Source of the DNA: Verrucomicrobium sp. BvORR106
GTDB taxonomy: Bacteria; Verrucomicrobiota; Verrucomicrobiia; Verrucomicrobiales; Verrucomicrobiaceae
Length of the DNA stretch: 61,607 nucleotides
Direction of reading: 5' to 3'
NCBI RefSeq assembly: GCF_000739655.1
Contig: NZ_BATR01000100.1
Location: forward strand, 1-61,607
In this document: positions 1 to 38,247 of the stretch, one piece after another
How the letters are laid out: the number at the start of each line of letters is the position of its first letter
Numbering within the stretch: the stretch's first letter is position 1
Notes under the pieces: generated by a model
What the model was told of the DNA's origin: nothing
Seen by the model: only the letters and a program-made list of their open reading frames with translations
The model's database searches: none
Translations under genes and position numbers: made by a program

Positions 1-3000
1 TCCACCATCACCTTCAACAAGGTTGGAGGCAATGCTCTGACCAAGCAGGGGGTGGCGCTGGACATCATTCGCAATGCCCTCACCCTATCCACTGCGCTCA
101 ATGTCAATGTGGTGGATGCTGCCGGAAGCCTGCAGCTCGACGGAGCCATCGGGGCGGGCACCCTGACCAAGACTGGCGCGGGCACGTTGCTGATCACGGG
201 GACTGCAAACAATGCGCTCAACCTGCTGAATGCACAGCAGGGGACGGTGGTGCTTGCGAAGAGCAGTTCGACGTTGGTTCGGGCTGTCACCGGGGCGTTG
301 AATGTCGGAGGGGCGACTGCGGTTGACACGGCGACGGTCCAGATTGGTGGATCCTATGCAGGACTGGGCAGTACGCACCTCCCGAACTTTCGCGATCAAA
401 TCACGGCTGCGACCATCGTGACGCTCAACGCTTTTGGGACCCTGGATCTGAACGGAAACAGTGAAAGCATCGGACAATTGCTTGGAACAGGGAAAGTGAG
501 GAACTCGAAGGTGGGCACCACCTCCGTAATTGCCGTCGGGGAGTCTGTTGTTGCAAACACGACATTCGGCGGGCTCATCGAGGACGGCGACGGAACTGTC
601 TCCATTCGGAAGACCGGGGGTGTGACGTTGACGCTCACTGGAGAGAACACCTTCACGGGTGACTTGGTTGTCTTGAGCGGCACGTTGGCACTGGGGGGGA
701 CCTCGGGATCTGTGGACACGCAACTGATCAGGATGGTGCGCGGATCCCTGCTTCTGGACAACACCACCGCCAACAACAATGACAGGATCAGCGACACGGC
801 TACGGTCTCGCTGGCCCAAGGGTTTGGCAGCAACGGTCTCGTGATGCGTCGCAACAACGTTGCTGGAGTGAATACTCATGAAGAGATCGGTGCCCTTTCA
901 GTGCAGAACGGACACAATGTTGTGAGGTTCGACCATTCGGCGGGGGGGAATGCGACCTCCATCCTGGCCAATGTTCTGACACTGGAGATGAACAACTACA
1001 CCCGTAGCGTGGGGGGCACTGTGGCATTCGCGGAAATGGCCACCGCCGAAGCCCCTACTGGGTACAGTTACTTCAGCGCCACCGCCCCGTCTTCGGCGCA
1101 AACGCTGACCAAGATCATCCTGAACAATCTGCCAAGTCAGTGGCTGGTGGGGGGCGATGGATCGACCGGATACAATCGCAAGGTGCTCATCGGTGCCTTT
1201 GGCAACGTGTCGGAAAATACGGTTCTCAACCGGTTCGGCAACCGCTTGATGACGGTGGAAACCATCGACAACGTGAACTACGTTCGCCCATTGGACAGCA
1301 CGGAGTTTCGAGAGCTTGGCAGCGGTGCGACGACAAAGGTGATCGCCTCAAGCAACCTTGCTGGTGGCACACTCACCATCAACCCGGATGACAACGTCAA
1401 GGTGACCGGTGTCAGTGGTACGGCTGTGATCCCGTTGACCATTCGAGTGGGGCCTGCAAACAACGCGCTGGCAGGGCACCTGGCTTTCAACTCTTTGTGG
1501 GTGGAAGCGCCGTCCAGCGCCACGGTCGCCGCCAGTGTCAGCATTCGGATTGCCGACTTTAACGTGGTACATCTGGGCGACTATGAAGGGGATGACCTGC
1601 ATTCAGAGGTAACGGGAGGTTCTGGAACACTGTTCTTCAACGGCGGCAGGCTCAACGCTGGCGGCTCCGGTCTCTACGGCGGTGCTCTCATTCGTGGAGG
1701 GACCTTGGACTTTGGGAGCCGGGAGGCGATCATCTACATCGATGTTACAAATTCCGCCACCTTTTACACCACGATCACTGGCACGGGGGGAGTGACGAAA
1801 ACAGGGGGCGGGCAAGCTCACTTCTATGGATGGAACAATTACAGCGGCATCACGACTCATGCCTTGAACGAACTGTGGGTCTACACGGACACTGCTCTTG
1901 GGAAGGGGGGCGTGGGCAACGAAGTGATTAACTACGCAACCTTCCTGATCATGAATGGCATCAATATCGGCTCTATGACCGATGAGACTTTGCGCAAAGA
2001 CATGCTCTTTCGTGCAGGCGTTTTCTATAGCGCCGGTGGCAAGGCCAATTCCTGGAACGGTGATGTCTACTTGGACAATGCCTTGGAATCTGGAGAATAC
2101 GGTCAGGTGCTGACATTCACGGTTCGTGCGAACGCGGCCATGGTCATCAATGGAAACATTACGGGAACTGGTGCGACCAATCCGGCTCTCAATACTGGGT
2201 TGGATTCAGGGCGTGGGTTCACCATTCAGAATGATCAGACGTCGGTTACCAGTGTGCGGGGGGTAAATGGCAATCTGGTGATCAACGGCGAACTGGCAGA
2301 TATCGACGGAAGAGCGGCTCTGAATTCCAGTGAAAAGCTGCTGATAAGCATCGCGGGCTACACTGCGGCGACAGCTTCCAACAAGACCATGACCCACAAC
2401 AAGTTCAATGTGTTCTTTGAAGATGCTACAAACAGCAATGCCAGCCTGGGCATTACTTCGGGATATGTGCACTTCAACAAGGGTTTGGGAGTGGATGGCA
2501 CAACCTTCAACCGTACGATTATCCGCCAAAATGACGGCACAACTGAGATGGACCGGGCTGGCAATATCAGCGCCATTCTGCTGGGTTCAGATGGTGCTGC
2601 CTTCCGGACGGGTGCGTTCGTTTACGGGAATACGAATGCGGCATATTCATCCAATTCGGCGCTGTTGATTGGTGGAGAGAATACCTCAGGCACCGTCCAC
2701 TTTGGAAATAGCAATGGGTCAACCACCTTCACCTTCAGCCTGAACATCAGCCCGACCAACAAGGCGAAGGCGACAACCTGGACCAACGTGGTGGCGACGA
2801 AGCTGCCAACGGCAAGCAGCGCGCAAAATACCCGGGTAATTGCAATCGACACGAGCAACATAGTCGTCGGGATGATTGTCACGGGTACTGGTGTGCCTGC
2901 CGGGACCCAGGTGCTGTCTGTGCAAGCCGGAACGATAACACTGAATCAGGCGTTGACCGGAACAGGTGTGACAACCTCCACCTCGCTCTCCTTTGCCAGC

Positions 3001-6000
3001 CCGGTTAGCACGATTCAGCTTGCCGATGTGACGAATCTACAGGTCGGCATGGGCATCAGCGGCACAGGTATCCGTGCTGGCACCGTGATCACCGCCATTG
3101 ATGCGGTCACGAGCACTGTGACACTGAGTGCTCCGGTAAATGCGGCCATTACCACGGCTGCGTTGAATTTCACTGTGGCGGCGCCTGTGACCGTCGCGGG
3201 GACAACCAGAACTCAAAACTTTGGAGAAGCTCGCTTGTATCAGATGGCAGGCGGGACCGCAGAGTTCAACACATCCTTCACAGATGGGGCCGGTTACAGG
3301 GTGGATCAGGCTACTGGCGCCTTGTCGAAAGTGGGACGGGGTACGGTGGTGCTCAACGGCGGTACCAGCAGTTCCGACATCAATGGTGGCATCAATGTCT
3401 TCGGCGGGACTCTGGTGCTGAACTACAGCGGCAAGGCGGAGGGGTTCTCTCACATCAGCGGTCTGACAACCAACCAGAACAATCCCTATCAGCTCACCAT
3501 GGCGGGAGGGGAGTTGCGACTGACGAATGAAGGCTCGCTTGGGGACACGAACACGGAGTACATGCGAGGTGTCCTTACCTTCCGTGCCGGAAACTCATCT
3601 ATCACTTTGAACCCTGGCGACGAGAAGACCTTGAACCTGCATCTGGGGCTGGTGAACCCCGTCACGCAGATAATTGACAACAGGCTGAATCCCGGCTGGT
3701 ACTGGCGGGCGCCGGACCGCTTCGCCGGGGCTACCGTCAACTTCTTCTCAAACACGCGGGTCAAGGGCGCAGCCAACTTCTATTATTCCCAGAATGCTCC
3801 GGAAGGCGCGGGTCTCGCTGGGCTGGGGCTCGGAACTGGAACCATCATCCCTTACAGCACTTACAAGTATTTGGATGAAAATGGAACTGCGTACGTGGAC
3901 TTTGCTGCATTCCTCCTGGAGATGAACGGGAACACTCGCATCGTCGATGCGGCGGGCTATGTGGCCAATTCCCCCAGCGTCTATTCCGTGAACTCTGGAG
4001 CCGGAGCACCAGATGTCAGCACCTGGACCACACTGGTCCAGGACACGAACGTCAACGGATACTTCACCGACGACGATTTCAGCGGGACCAATGGGTTTGC
4101 CGGTGCAGTGACGGGCAACAAGTACAGCACTGGCGATGCGTCCTACCTGGACATCGTGGGCGTGCGCGCCATTCGATTCGCCGCCAGCGCTGCAGGCGGC
4201 AGCATTATCACCATCGGGTCCGGTGCAGGGAGCGCGGATCGCCTGGTGTTGGGAACACAAGGCCTGAATGGCTGGGATGGCGCGGGGTGGACGACCGGGG
4301 ACGGCGGGGCCATTCTGGTTTCGAACTCTGTCGGTGCGGCGTCGGCGGGAATCAGCGGGGGCTATCTGACATCCGCGCTCCCCAGTACCTACTTCACTGC
4401 TGCCGTCGCTCCCGGCAGCATGACGGCGCTGCCAGGGCCGACTGCTCGTGACTTGATCATCCATAACTACAACACGGGAAGCGTGTTCACTATTGACTCG
4501 ACCATTGTGGACTTCACTGAGAACCATGACTACGGTCCAAACCAGGCCGTCACTGCGCTAACGGGCGTGACCAAGCTGAATCTCGTCGTGGCGGGGCCGG
4601 GTACCACCCTCTTGAAAAAGGCGACCAACTACTACACTGGCACCACCTACGTCAGCGGCGGGGCCATGGCCGAAAACAATCAGTGGGAGGTGGGAACGCT
4701 CTGGGTGGGATCGGTGGAGTCACTAGGCTCAGGGGGCGTGCACCTTAATGGAGGTCGCTTGCGGTTTGCGCATACGTCAACGCCGCAAACTCAGAGCTTG
4801 GGAAGTCTCAACTTTGGTAGATCTGTAACTTTGGGGGGGAACGGTGGCTACATTGACGTGACGCATGCGAGCACGATCTTGACGATTGGTGGAGCAGTGC
4901 GCTCGGAAGACAACATCCTTTCCGGAAATATTGCCTCCACTCAGATGTCGGCTAATCCTGGAGTGGGAGACCTCATTAAAGAGGGAGCGGGCAGACTGAT
5001 ACTGACCAATCATGAGGCGATTCCAACGACCTTCAGTTCCACGCCCAATTCCCAGCAGATCTGGAACGCCTACTACGGGCTGACCATTGTAAAAGCAGGA
5101 ACTCTTCAAGTGAATATCGCGGCAACAGCGGACTCTGGGATCTTGGGAAGCAACGACTCCACGATCGATGGAACAGTGGTCGAGGAGGGCGCCCGGCTTG
5201 ATGTGCAGATGACGTCTGCCGCAGCGGGCACTAAAGAGTGGATCACCCTCGATGGTGCGACTCTGGGAACCACGGCAGCCCACACGGACGGATACATTGA
5301 CGGTGTGATGACGATTGCTTCCAAAGGGGCAACGTTCGACATCACAGGCAGTGGCACTTTGCGCCTGAACGGAGCTGGCACGGCTGACGGCTTCTTGGCA
5401 GGTACGGGCAATGTGGTGAAGACTGGCACAGGGACGCTCTTTCTGTACCAGAACAATGTGACCTACACGGGCAACTGGGACATCCTGCAAGGGAGGGTCA
5501 ATGGTTTTGGTCAGGGCATGACCCTGGGGGCAGGGGGCACGATCACGCTAGGCAGCATTACTGCCACAAGTGGTGAAGCTTCGTTGTTCCTTTCTGCCAA
5601 CCAAGTGTTCACCTCGCAATACCGGATCAATCAGGACATCATTGTGAGGGCCAACGCGGGGACCCAGGTGAGAAACATCGGAGCCGGACTCTCCCCAGCC
5701 ACAGCGAATGGACGGAATCAAGATTCCTTCTTCTTCGAGGGAGATATCACCCTCAATGGTGATGCTCATCTGGTCTTTGTCGAGAGCAGTGCCGCCACTT
5801 CGCTTGCTCCGATCACCGGTGAACTCCAGTATTCCCACGTCACGGGCGCCTACCGGAACCTGGTCTTCAACGGCCACTTCAGTGGATCGGGAAATCTCTA
5901 CACGGATGTCACTCTTACTGGCGTAGCAACCAACGGTGCCAAGGTCACCTTCCTCATCAATGGCGACAACTCCAGTGCCAATGGCCAGACCGCATGGACC

Positions 6001-21701: not shown

Positions 21702-22439
21702 ATGGCAAAGCAGCGGCTTGATCACCTCTTGGTGGCGCGTGGTCTTTGCACTTCCCGGGAGCAGGGGAAGCGGCTCATCCTCGCTGGCGAAGTACTGGTG
21801 AACGATGAGCCGGTCACCAAGGCTGGCCAGCTTGTGCGAGAGGACTGCGTTATTCGCGTCAAAGAGCCTCCCAAGTATGTGAGCCGGGGTGGGTTCAAGA
21901 TGGAAGGGGCTCTTGCAGCCTTCGGCGTATCTCCCGAGGGGAAGGTGTGCTTTGACGTGGGGGCTTCCACGGGAGGCTTTACCGACTGCCTCCTCCAGCA
22001 TGGAGCGGTCAAGGTTTTCGCCTTCGACGTCGGGACCAACCAGCTCGTGTGGAAACTGCGCAGCGATCCGCGAGTGGTCTCGCGCGAAAACTACAACGTC
22101 CGTCATCTGAAGGTGGAGGACGTGGGCGAGGAGGTGGACATCATTGTCGCCGATGTCTCGTTCATTTCACTCACCCTCGTGCTGCCACCCGCTTTTCAGG
22201 TGTTGAAGGCGGGCGGTGAGGCGCTGGTGCTGATCAAGCCTCAGTTCGAGTTGAGTCGTGAAGAAATTGGCCGGGGCGGGATCGTGCGAGAGACAGCACT
22301 CCATGAGAAGGCGTGCCTGAAGATTGAGACCTTTGTAAAGAGCCAGCCCGGTTGGGTCTGGAAGGGGCTCACCGATTCTCCGATTCAAGGCACCGATGGG
22401 AACCGCGAGTTCCTGGCCTGGATTGGCAAGGTGGGGTGA
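21702..22439 (+). CDS. tlyA: TlyA family rRNA 2'-O-methyltransferase (S4 + FtsJ-like)
   Basis: This 245-residue protein has an N-terminal S4 RNA-binding domain (about 1-60: QRLDHLLVARGLCTSREQGK, then AGEVLVNDEPVTKAG) followed by a class I methyltransferase domain with FDVGASTGGFTDCLLQHGA as the SAM motif, DVGTNQL and VDIIVADVSFISL. This is the TlyA/hemolysin A architecture; TlyA of mycobacteria methylates ribose positions in 16S and 23S rRNA. The length is slightly short but normal. The stop codon TGA is the first unit of a TGATC tandem repeat. A cytoplasmic RNA methyltransferase is the most likely role; the historic hemolysin label is not supported by the sequence. Confidence 0.93.
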   Translation: MAKQRLDHLLVARGLCTSREQGKRLILAGEVLVNDEPVTKAGQLVREDCVIRVKEPPKYVSRGGFKMEGALAAFGVSPEGKVCFDVGASTGGFTDCLLQHGAVKVFAFDVGTNQLVWKLRSDPRVVSRENYNVRHLKVEDVGEEVDIIVADVSFISLTLVLPPAFQVLKAGGEALVLIKPQFELSREEIGRGGIVRETALHEKACLKIETFVKSQPGWVWKGLTDSPIQGTDGNREFLAWIGKVG

Positions 22440-22461
22440 TCTGATCTGATCTGATCTGATC
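22437..22461 (+). repeat. Pentanucleotide tandem repeat (TGATC)5
   Basis: Five perfect TGATC units begin exactly at the tlyA stop codon. Repeat-number change would not alter the protein because the first unit supplies the stop. Confidence 0.97.
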
Positions 22462-22517
22462 TGGAACTCACGGCACGTGTGGACGTCCGGTGTGTTTCCG
22501 GGGACCGATTCAGACGC

Positions 22518-22784
22518 ATGAACGTGTCTGAGTTTATTTCCAAGGTGGCTCCCCACATTGGGAGCGGACGATGGCAGCAGCAACACCCCGGGGCGACGCA
22601 GCTTGCGAGCGGGGCCGGGAAGCTGGCCTGCCTGGCCACAGGGGTGGGCATGCTGCGCAGCGGTGCCGCCCAGCACGGCTGGAAGCGGTGGGGACTCTTT
22701 GTGCTCGGGGGCGTCTTGCTCTACCGGATGCTGGCTGCCAAGAAGGAGGATCGGGTGGAGGAGATCTGGTTCAGGAGGAGGTAG
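22518..22784 (+). CDS. Small membrane protein, unknown
   Basis: This would be an 88-residue protein starting MNVSEFISK at ATG 22518; a GTG at 22479 would add 13 residues. It contains an Ala/Gly-rich middle segment (LACLATGVGML) and a clear hydrophobic stretch WGLFVLGGVLLYRML near residues 55-70, then a charged tail ending FRRR. No family is recognised. It follows tlyA by about 80 bp on the same strand. Codon use looks ordinary for the region, but support is only moderate because other frames here are also open. Confidence 0.5.
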   Translation: MNVSEFISKVAPHIGSGRWQQQHPGATQLASGAGKLACLATGVGMLRSGAAQHGWKRWGLFVLGGVLLYRMLAAKKEDRVEEIWFRRR

Positions 22785-22802
22785 GAGGAGGAGTGGTGGA
22801 GA

Positions 22803-22866
22803 GATGGAGTGATGGAGTGATGGAGTGATGGAGTGATGGAGTGATGGAGTGATGGAGTGATGGAGT
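22803..22866 (+). repeat. Octanucleotide tandem repeat (GATGGAGT)8
   Basis: Eight perfect 8 bp units follow one another with no spacer. Rotated, the unit is TGGAGTGA, one base away from the TGGAGTGG unit at 37714-37740. The array sits 95 bp before a fold-back element. Confidence 0.98.
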
Positions 22867-22960
22867 GGTGCCGCGAGTTGGTTCATGCCGCGGCAGGTCC
22901 GGCGTGACTGGCGGCCCTGAGCTACAGTGGCAAAGTGCGATGTGGGGCCGGTCGTGATAT

Positions 22961-23376
22961 GGGTCTACCGCTCCGCGGTAGAGTAGCGTGTGTTGTTCCC
23001 CGGGCAGTCCTCGCTTCACTCGGTCGGCAAAGCATGACGGGCCGGACTTCCTGCCAGGGAACCTTGGATGCGAAAGGCAGGCCGACCGCCACAACTTCTT
23101 CGGAGTAAAAACTTGAATCGTCCCATACCCACGTAGGCTCGCTCGAAGCTCGCCAATGTGGGGCTTATGGAATATCCACTTCGAGGAAGAGCGTCGCCTG
23201 AATGACGGAGCAGTGATGGTTCCTTGGCGGCAGCGTCGTTGGTTGGCTCTCGATACGTGACTTCCTGAACCCGGAGGGTTCGCCATCCGTAGCCATGGGT
23301 GAAGCGAGCGGAGCGAGTGCAACCCATGGTAAGGAGAACGTCGCTTCTACCGCGCAGCGGTAGGCCCATCGGGTGG
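22961..23376. repeat. Fold-back repeat element, copy A
   Basis: The right half (23269-23376) is a unit of about 105 bp starting AACCCGGAGGGTTC, containing the palindrome CCATGGGT...ACCCATGG (23294-23330) and the hairpin TACCGC-GCA-GCGGTA, and ending GGCCCATCGGGTG. The left end has the same end motif inverted (GGGTCTACCGCTCCGCGGTA, 22961-22980), followed by a degraded inverted copy. Two copies of the same unit occur at 37853-38116. Confidence 0.8.
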
Positions 23377-31090: not shown

Positions 31091-31612
31091 TCACCTCTTG
31101 ATCTTGTTGTATTCCGCGTCATACAACTTTTCAGCCACAAGTCCGTCCATGGTCACGATGATGGTCTGGCTGGGGTGTCCGGGAGTCGATTCCGTAAGGT
31201 CAAACTCGTACGCATATTGGCAGATGTCTGTAGGAGTCGATTCGTTGTTGAACCAGAACATTTCACTTTCGAGCGACTCGAACCTTCCCTTGTAACTCGT
31301 CACCTGCCGATAATACGCGACCGCGATGGCCAGGGCAGCGTTGCGGGTCAGAGGAGGCAGTGTGCGGCTTTGCACCGACCAAGGACCCACTTTGCGCAAA
31401 GACGACAGGGAGGCCACATAGTAGATTCCGACAGGTCTTCCTTGCGCGTCATTGGTGCCGAAGCTGCGAACCAACACGGGATCAGGCACGACGGCGTGGA
31501 GCCGCAGGCCACCCAGCGGACATGCGATGGCGATCAGGGCGATGACGGCTACCTGACGGAAGGGACGGAAGGGACGGAAGGGACGGAAGGGACGGAAGCT
31601 GAAGGTGCGCAT
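31091..31612 (-). CDS. Secreted protein with a repeat-encoded signal peptide
   Basis: This encodes 173 residues from ATG 31612. The N-terminus MRTFSF(RPF)n RQVAVIALIAIA is a signal peptide whose basic n-region is encoded by a 9 bp tandem repeat. The mature part has no recognised domain; it includes VGIYYVASL, TRNAALAIAVAYYRQV and TIIVTMDGLVAEKLYD. It lies 8 bp after the stop of the upstream SHD1-like gene, so the two probably form an operon and work together in the periplasm. Confidence 0.7.
   Translation of the reverse strand: MRTFSFRPFRPFRPFRPFRQVAVIALIAIACPLGGLRLHAVVPDPVLVRSFGTNDAQGRPVGIYYVASLSSLRKVGPWSVQSRTLPPLTRNAALAIAVAYYRQVTSYKGRFESLESEMFWFNNESTPTDICQYAYEFDLTESTPGHPSQTIIVTMDGLVAEKLYDAEYNKIKR
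31555..31599. repeat. In-frame 9 bp tandem repeat (GACGGAAGG)5 in a signal peptide
   Basis: Five units of 9 bp (the last with one change) lie inside the minus-strand secreted protein gene and encode repeated Arg-Pro-Phe triplets. Gain or loss of units keeps the frame and changes only the length and charge of the signal peptide n-region. Confidence 0.93.
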
Positions 31613-37713: not shown

Positions 37714-37740
37714 GTGGAGTGGTGGAGTGGTGGAGTGGTG
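37714..37740 (+). repeat. Octanucleotide tandem repeat (GTGGAGTG)3
   Basis: Three perfect units and a partial GTG. Rotated to TGGAGTGG, the unit differs by one base from that of the array at 22803-22866. Confidence 0.95.
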
Positions 37741-37852
37741 TGTGTCGATATAGGGTTCTAGGAAGTAGGATTGCAGAATTGTGCCAACTGTGAATGACAA
37801 CCACACTTGCAACTGGGAACCGACGAATAGCATGTAACGATCAATCTCCAGG

Positions 37853-38116
37853 AACCCGGAGGGTTCACCATGAATAGCCATGGGTCGGCCGAGTATAGCG
37901 AGGACTGCCCATGGATTTCCGTCCAAGAGAAGTTTACTGCGGAGCGGTAAGCCCATGGCGTTGCTAGCCCTATAGCAGTCTTCCCGATAGGCTCCGCCAG
38001 CAACGCTGGTCACCCGATGGGCCTACCGCTCCGCGGTAGCATGCAGTCAGCTTTTCGTGGGTAGCCCTCGCATAGCTCGGTCGACCCATGGCTAAGCATG
38101 GTGAACTCTCCGGGTT
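37853..38116. repeat. Fold-back repeat element, copy B
   Basis: Two units of about 105 bp face each other. The outer arms 37853-37887 and 38082-38116 match as inverted repeats over 35 bp with three differences, beginning AACCCGGAGGGTTC and its inverse. The inner arms 37935-37958 and 38015-38038 match over 24 bp with three differences and contain the hairpin TACCGC-TCC-GCGGTA in the right copy. The units are the same family as 23269-23376. Confidence 0.88.
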
Positions 38117-38180
38117 CAGGAAACGTGAGATGCACGGGTGGCGGCGTCTTTGATTGATTGCTTTCGTTGAGAGTGGAGGA

Positions 38181-38208
38181 AACTTCAAACTTCAAACTTC
38201 AAACTTCA
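38181..38208. repeat. Heptanucleotide tandem repeat (AACTTCA)4
   Basis: Four perfect 7 bp units lie just downstream of the methyltransferase gene. Confidence 0.95.
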
Positions 38209-38212
38209 CGAC

Positions 38213-38247
38213 GAACCAAGAACCAAGAACCAAGAACCAAGAACTAG
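38213..38247. repeat. Heptanucleotide tandem repeat (GAACCAA)4 plus a degenerate unit
   Basis: Four perfect units of GAACCAA and one degenerate GAACTAG begin 5 bp after the AACTTCA array. The last unit overlaps the stop of the minus-strand methyltransferase gene (stop at 38244). Confidence 0.95.

Follow-up and report, generated by a model that had tools for sequence, protein, structure and literature searches.

Short tandem arrays beside a fold-back repeat family of probable IS200-like origin in Verrucomicrobium sp. BvORR106

The window, i.e. the whole 61,607-nucleotide stretch analysed here, is contig C110 of the draft genome of Verrucomicrobium sp. BvORR106 (8.69 Mb in 209 contigs). It contains two gaps in which tandem TGGAGTGR octamers stand ahead of a fold-back element built from a unit of about 105 bp (Table 1). 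A sequence-only reading of the window had described eight perfect octamers before the fold-back in the first gap (copy 1) and a variant octamer about 110 bp from a fold-back of the same family in the second (copy 2). Both descriptions were borne out: 91 bp separate the array from the inverse unit in copy 1, 111 bp lie between octamer array and fold-back in copy 2, and TRF reports the copy 1 array at 22790-22867 with 9.8 copies and a score of 142. The small ORF ahead of copy 1 has collinear sequence, including the terminal TAG, in the genomes G003 (L373) and G001 (L372). Other short repeats were also observed in the window. TGATC is repeated 5.4 times at 22437-22463, its start falling in the upstream gene's stop codon, and GACGGAAGG is repeated 4.9 times at 31555-31598 within an ORF, where it encodes an RPF repeat. 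The fold-back of copy 2 is framed by arrays on both sides, with the octamers at 37714 and arrays of AAACTTC and GAACCAA at 38180-38244, behind a minus-strand gene at 38244. A search of the window against Rfam returned one tRNA and nothing else.

Table 1. Coordinates of the repeat features in the window and of the units flanking the transposase gene in G003
Feature	Position	Strand	Basis or remark
Copy 1: small ORF, 101 aa	22479..22784	+	ORF list; TAG stop 22782-22784 precedes array
Copy 1: array of 8 perfect TGGAGTGR octamers	22805..22868	+	final octamer TGGAGTGG
Copy 1: probable degraded long end (TGCCGCGAGTTGGTTCATG...), immediately 3' of array	22869..22898	+	PWM score -0.7
Copy 1: degraded inverse fold-back unit, model positions 17-105	22959..23038	-	nhmmer E 1.9e-09
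Copy 1: well-preserved fold-back unit, short end	23266..23370	+	nhmmer E 2e-26
Copy 2: TGGAGTGG array, 3.4 copies, 20 bp past stop of 1354-aa ORF	37714..37740	+	TRF
Copy 2: complete plus-minus fold-back, short ends on both sides, 267 nt	37852..38118	.	units 37852-37956, 38016-38118
G003 L233: bracketing units	2328-2432 and 2924-3027		flank Y1_Tnp gene

The 105-bp unit gave 65 blastn matches genome-wide and GAACCCGGAGGGTTCRCC gave 82 exact matches, while a profile of the unit gave 103 matches at 63 places among the loci fetched from the BvORR106 genome; the unit at 23266-23370 is 87-89% identical to its best other copies. Among the 63 elements, 36 are arranged plus-minus, usually with a length of 264-270 bp, 13 consist of a minus unit only and 10 of a plus unit only, three are minus-plus and one is minus-minus. 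The complete form reads GAACCCGGAGGGTTCRCCATG, TAGCCATGGGT...ACCCATGG, about 18 nt, CTACCGC..GCGGTAGGCCCAT and about 50 nt, followed by the inverse. The two internal palindromes of the unit, CCATGGGT..ACCCATGG and TACCGC-N3-GCGGTA, are as first described, GTAG or ATAG stands before the CCATGGGT stem, and the earlier likening of the unit to REP sequences holds, the unit itself appearing to derive from a mobile element. Complete fold-backs fold with a z of about -14; copy 2, as single-stranded DNA, has a predicted fold of -96.6 kcal/mol against a shuffle mean of -42.8 (z -13.95). In the predicted fold the two inverted units and their spacer collapse into a single hairpin, which is the layout of a REPIN.

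The origin of the fold-back is suggested by G003, a genome of the same genus in a single 8.22-Mb contig, in which two inverted copies of the unit bracket a Y1_Tnp gene encoding 148 aa. The encoded protein matches PF01797 with 83.8 bits and passes the IS200 model NF033573 (67 bits, cut-off 55), and scores 25.7 bits against the NCBIfam REP-transposase model NF047646, below its cut-off of 80. Its HUH motif and a tyrosine, which we take to be the catalytic one, align with the solved IS200-type transposases 2fyx and 2xm3. At the orthologous locus in BvORR106 (L251) both units are kept with about 75 nt of the 5' end of the gene, and the remainder of the gene is lost; L251 is a fold-back caught following the loss of its transposase gene. 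The bracketed gene in G003 and the remnant at L251 thus point to the fold-back as a REPIN- or MITE-like derivative of an IS200-like element. The full G003 element, with its gene, has a short end and lacks both leader and array. As had been noted at the outset, the window holds no RAYT-type transposase: all 18 PF01797 matches of BvORR106 lie outside its contig, and none of the 18 is an intact cognate transposase with the studied unit within about 1.5 kb. The seven full-length Y1 loci examined in BvORR106 (L115-L121) all differ, each being flanked by its own inverted repeats; several of these repeats have an outer palindrome and a TAGCC hairpin resembling the layout of the studied unit. In a comparison of 15 of the 18 intended Y1 proteins (L206, L209 and L212, which yielded no protein, were dropped, and L122 was left out), no pair within one genome exceeded 74% identity and the G003 protein reached at most 44% with any other; the transposase is single-copy per genome and distinct from its paralogues.

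The octamer is no fixed partner of the fold-back. Of the 23 TGGAGTGR arrays with at least three copies in the genome, three stand beside a fold-back (two in the window and one at C208), or four if a diverged copy at C131 is included, where a diverged long end and then the unit come after the octamer array at C131:2442. Conversely, a TGGAGTGR array occurs within 150 bp of 3 of the 63 elements (the two of the window and L094 at C208). A composite of this octamer with the fold-back was accordingly rejected; fold-backs are not generally accompanied by TGGAGTGR arrays, and what stands of the idea that array and fold-back form one composite is a linkage beyond chance between arrays of various units and one class of element end.

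This class is defined by the sequence outside the unit. Ends of the TGAACCCGGAGGGTTCGCC type often extend outward as GTTATCTCA plus TTGCGCG and ends of the GAACCCGGAGGGTTCACC type do not; the long-end subclass is marked by an extra TTGCGCGNGTTATCTCAT, with an outer leader of about 14 nt (often ..TGGTTCTT), then TTGCGCGNGTTATCTCAT and then GAACCCGG. An array was defined as at least 2.5 copies of a 5-12-nt unit spanning at least 18 nt and ending 12-22 nt outside the element end. By this definition an array with a unit of 7-8 nt is present at 14 of the 25 long ends with sufficient flank and lacking at the other 11. Of the remaining end types, the short G ends have one array among 12, and none occurs at 48 short A ends, one long A end, three unclassified ends or 36 inner or broken ends; 0.175% of 20,000 random intergenic points satisfy the same definition. 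The difference between long and short A ends is significant (Fisher 1.2e-8), as is the excess of long-end arrays over the intergenic background (binomial 1e-32, although the copies are not independent). Among 12 long ends of G003, eight carry an array that stops 0-3 nt short of TGCGCG, a ninth carries one at a distance of 18 nt and three carry none. The linked units are varied and include GTGCGTCR, GGTTCTT, GTGCTTG and GGGTCTT. In a set of 80 arrays, drawn from loci selected in part for their elements, a long end lies on the G-rich 3' side of 17 arrays (16 sites) and on the 5' side of none, by a matrix built largely from the tested sites, with only L297, C135:161953, L098 and L251 outside it. 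At C135:161891-161953, nine copies of GGGCAGT are followed by a long end and a mere stump of the unit. In a 1.26-Mb sample, about 4 of 30 intergenic arrays (37 arrays in all) abut a long end, so arrays are more widespread than the long-end composite, which makes up one clearly defined portion of them. Among 68 genomes of the family, three contain long ends, all from one of its 11 genera, and none was found in G002 of that genus, an assembly that is 76% complete; a scan of genome contigs, from which BvORR106 itself may be missing, named the unit only in Verrucomicrobium sp. BvORR034 (25 stretches).

Comparison of orthologous loci indicates that the fold-back persists as unit and copy number of the array change rapidly. 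With the element common to both loci, 13 copies of GTGCTTG at L305 and 12 copies of GGTTCTT at L308 correspond to no array at L253 and L250, respectively, where the leader runs from TAG, through about 14 nt that close with TGGTTCTT or a similar sequence, to TTGCGCG. In other pairs the unit or its number has changed: 16 copies of GTGCGTTG against 11 of GTGCGTCG (L306/L088), about 2-3 copies of GGGTCTT against 16 (L311/L083), and GTGTGTCA against GTGCGTCA (L314/L080). At L094 (C208), BvORR106 and G003 carry TGGAGTGG arrays, and G001 (L379) has TGGAGTGA with a remnant of the long end and no fold-back, which may be a case of an array that grew at a long end after the fold-back had been deleted.

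The two copies of the window fare differently in this light. In copy 1 the array abuts a probable degraded long end, whose score is attained in 1.35% of intergenic stretches of 170 bp drawn at random. The long end is clearer in the array-free orthologue of G001, a second species, with a PWM score of 16.0 (at least 10 in 0.3% of random stretches), and copy 1 therefore probably counts as a case of array with long end. The G003 orthologue scores -9.0, i.e. no long end, and likewise lacks the octamer array. We consider copy 1 to be probably an old, decayed long-end member whose array is unique to BvORR106 among the three genomes compared. Its minus-plus order, as opposed to the prevalent plus-minus, is unusual, so its two units may stem from separate insertions or differ in age. 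Copy 2 was excluded as a composite, since both its ends are short and 111 bp separate it from its array; its G001 orthologue (L374) has about 1.5 octamer copies and also the fold-back element.

The position of the long ends relative to genes is equally characteristic. Counting orthologues, which are not independent, 25 of 46 distinct long ends have the start of their array or leader no further than 20 nt from a sense stop codon, as identified with a simple purpose-made gene caller, and these stop codons are 19 TAG, 4 TGA and 2 TAA (TAG at 10 of 13 in BvORR106 alone), against 237 TAG stops in 871 called genes of the genome. No such excess was found among the 18 long ends 20-400 nt from a stop (TGA 7, TAG 6, TAA 5), nor any TAG-like site at short ends. 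The arrays often begin at the TAG stop codon, and for all 14 array-bearing long ends of BvORR106 a sense gene ends no more than 150 nt upstream. Arrays at large are not sense-strand features of the nearest gene, an explanation we ruled out, as in a sample near 3' ends the G-rich strand was sense 14 times and antisense 8 times. In G003 the long ends follow the GC skew, with 10 plus and 2 minus below 3.9 Mb and 1 plus and 8 minus above (Fisher 0.0019; the cut was picked by us from 20 skew points), and in strict skew zones with 8 plus and 1 minus, and 1 plus and 6 minus (Fisher 0.0087).

With moderate confidence, we favour the explanation that the fold-back descends from an IS200/IS605-like element and is itself non-autonomous, and that its long-end subclass forms a composite with a variable array behind a stop codon. 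The full form would consist of a unit, a Y1 transposase gene and an inverted unit, and loss of the gene would leave two inverted units of about 105 bp and a short spacer. Judging from their structure, such fold-backs could be mobilised in trans by a Y1 transposase as folded single strands, with TAG as a candidate insertion site. A stretch of 7-8 nt at the start of the leader would then be repeatedly expanded into a tandem array, so that array, long end and fold-back would make up one composite, usually in sense direction just past a stop codon, mostly TAG. The TAG border and the fixed geometry argue for the array lying inside the mobile unit. No clean empty site for a long-end copy was found at L244/L112 or L326/L061, or when G003 stretches were compared by BLAST with the loci fetched from the BvORR106 genome, a comparison that gave many orthologues; the left boundary is thus tentative and the array may sit outside the moving unit. 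A bolder version, which we regard as unlikely, makes the left end of the HUH/Y1 element the generator of the 7-8-nt arrays, the array being carried in a mobile composite, inserted behind TAG and rewritten by nick- or stall-primed slippage; if it were true, such elements would be one source of heptamer and octamer repeats past stop codons in other bacteria.

Several other explanations were weighed against the preferred one. One that we regard as possible but not probable is slippage in situ at a replication barrier, whereby the fold-back stalls the polymerase and short repeats of the host flank expand before it. The very stable fold, the change of arrays at fixed elements and the co-orientation of G003 long ends with GC skew are all in agreement with it; however, equally stable fold-backs with short ends lack arrays at that spacing (0/48), which speaks against a pure barrier, and the same small set of units turns up at unrelated loci, contrary to what slippage of a purely local kind would produce. 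The orientation bias, moreover, is equally expected of IS200/IS605 elements, as these insert into the lagging-strand template (part of PMC6006769). We think it improbable that arrays and fold-backs are chance neighbours, the octamers being ordinary simple-sequence repeats that collect in large, fold-back-rich intergenic gaps. This would suit the 19-20 of 23 octamer arrays without an adjoining unit, and copy 2 with its short end, its distance and its few octamers in G001, but it leaves the 12-22-nt spacing at 14 of 25 long ends unexplained and is already refuted for the long-end subclass.

We give little credence to a mechanism in which the transposase itself drives expansion. After Y1 cleavage, a 3' OH would remain on the left flank. 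Cutting of the left end would free this 3' end on the array side, and its extension with slippage would give one-sided arrays. The arrays are indeed one-sided (17/80 against 0/80, the matrix stemming from largely the same sites) and HUH-Y1 chemistry involves a covalent tyrosine link (part of PMC6006769), but BvORR106 has long arrays yet no intact cognate gene beside the unit, which counts against a pure nick. That array and hairpin are a selected device acting on the mRNA 3' end, through termination or stability, with mobility as mere history, seems doubtful to us: REPs are reported to affect both processes (part of PMC6006769) and the array-bearing long ends of BvORR106 all follow sense gene ends, but the sequence and presence of the array vary between orthologues and no fold is predicted for the octamer array itself.

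The elements resemble several known systems. Like the REPINs and RAYTs of Bertels and Rainey (2011, PMC3116915, consulted in part), they consist of an inverted palindromic doublet with a spacer that forms one hairpin in many intergenic copies, and the transposase is present once and distinct per genome; unlike REPINs, whose REP is short (20-40 bp, 5' GTAG), the unit is about 105 bp with several palindromes, the transposase fits the IS200 model and fails the REP-transposase model, and the long end and array are extra. Like TIRtrons, as far as the consulted sections of Rocco et al. (2013, PMC3733652) describe them, they have long inverted repeats, unrelated to GTAG REPs and dispersed in the genome, on either side of a Y1 gene, and several Y1 genes with their own repeats per genome, dispersal being shown here for the unit of G003; the same sections describe no one-ended tandem arrays and name no Verrucomicrobium family. 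IS200/IS605 elements and their miniature derivatives share the Y1_Tnp domain, HUH and tyrosine, hairpin ends and a strand-biased orientation, whereas here the gene copy is single, most members are gene-less and the leader bears arrays. The BrickBuilt MITE of Porphyromonas gingivalis (PMC4596501, in part) is likewise an intergenic miniature element with a minisatellite; its constant 23-nt unit, however, defines the element, unlike the variable 7-8-nt units outside the fold-back here. The G-rich heptamers of Xanthomonas and Nostoc, according to the part of PMC4692102 consulted, have one unit per genus with G-quadruplex tracts and are generally not tied to insertion sequences or transposable elements, in contrast to the variable and linked units described here. 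A search of the openly accessible literature returned no description of an IS200-like miniature element that carries variable-unit arrays on one side. G-rich arrays behind stop codons and REP- or IS200-type palindromes are usually held to be separate kinds of repeats, and here they meet. The fixed spacing and the natural before-and-after pairs of orthologues make the start and change of an array directly testable with few strains.

Arrays also occur beside other structures. At least four further octamer arrays (L100, L104, L110 and L114) are followed by a different hairpin, GTAGAAGAGCCGTCCCGGCWCTTGG; at these loci GTAGAAGAGCCGTCCCGGCTCTTGG, or a hairpin near it, stands about 60-110 nt past the octamer array and may represent a further REP-like family associated with arrays. 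At L273, C96:160341 and L098:6575, arrays of differing unit are each followed by a shared stretch near GGGTTCGAGG, which could be the end of another element. At L318 of G003 (C1:1234698-1235097), a TGGAGTGR array of about 50 copies, which the orthologue L065 lacks, directly follows an intrinsic-terminator-like T run.
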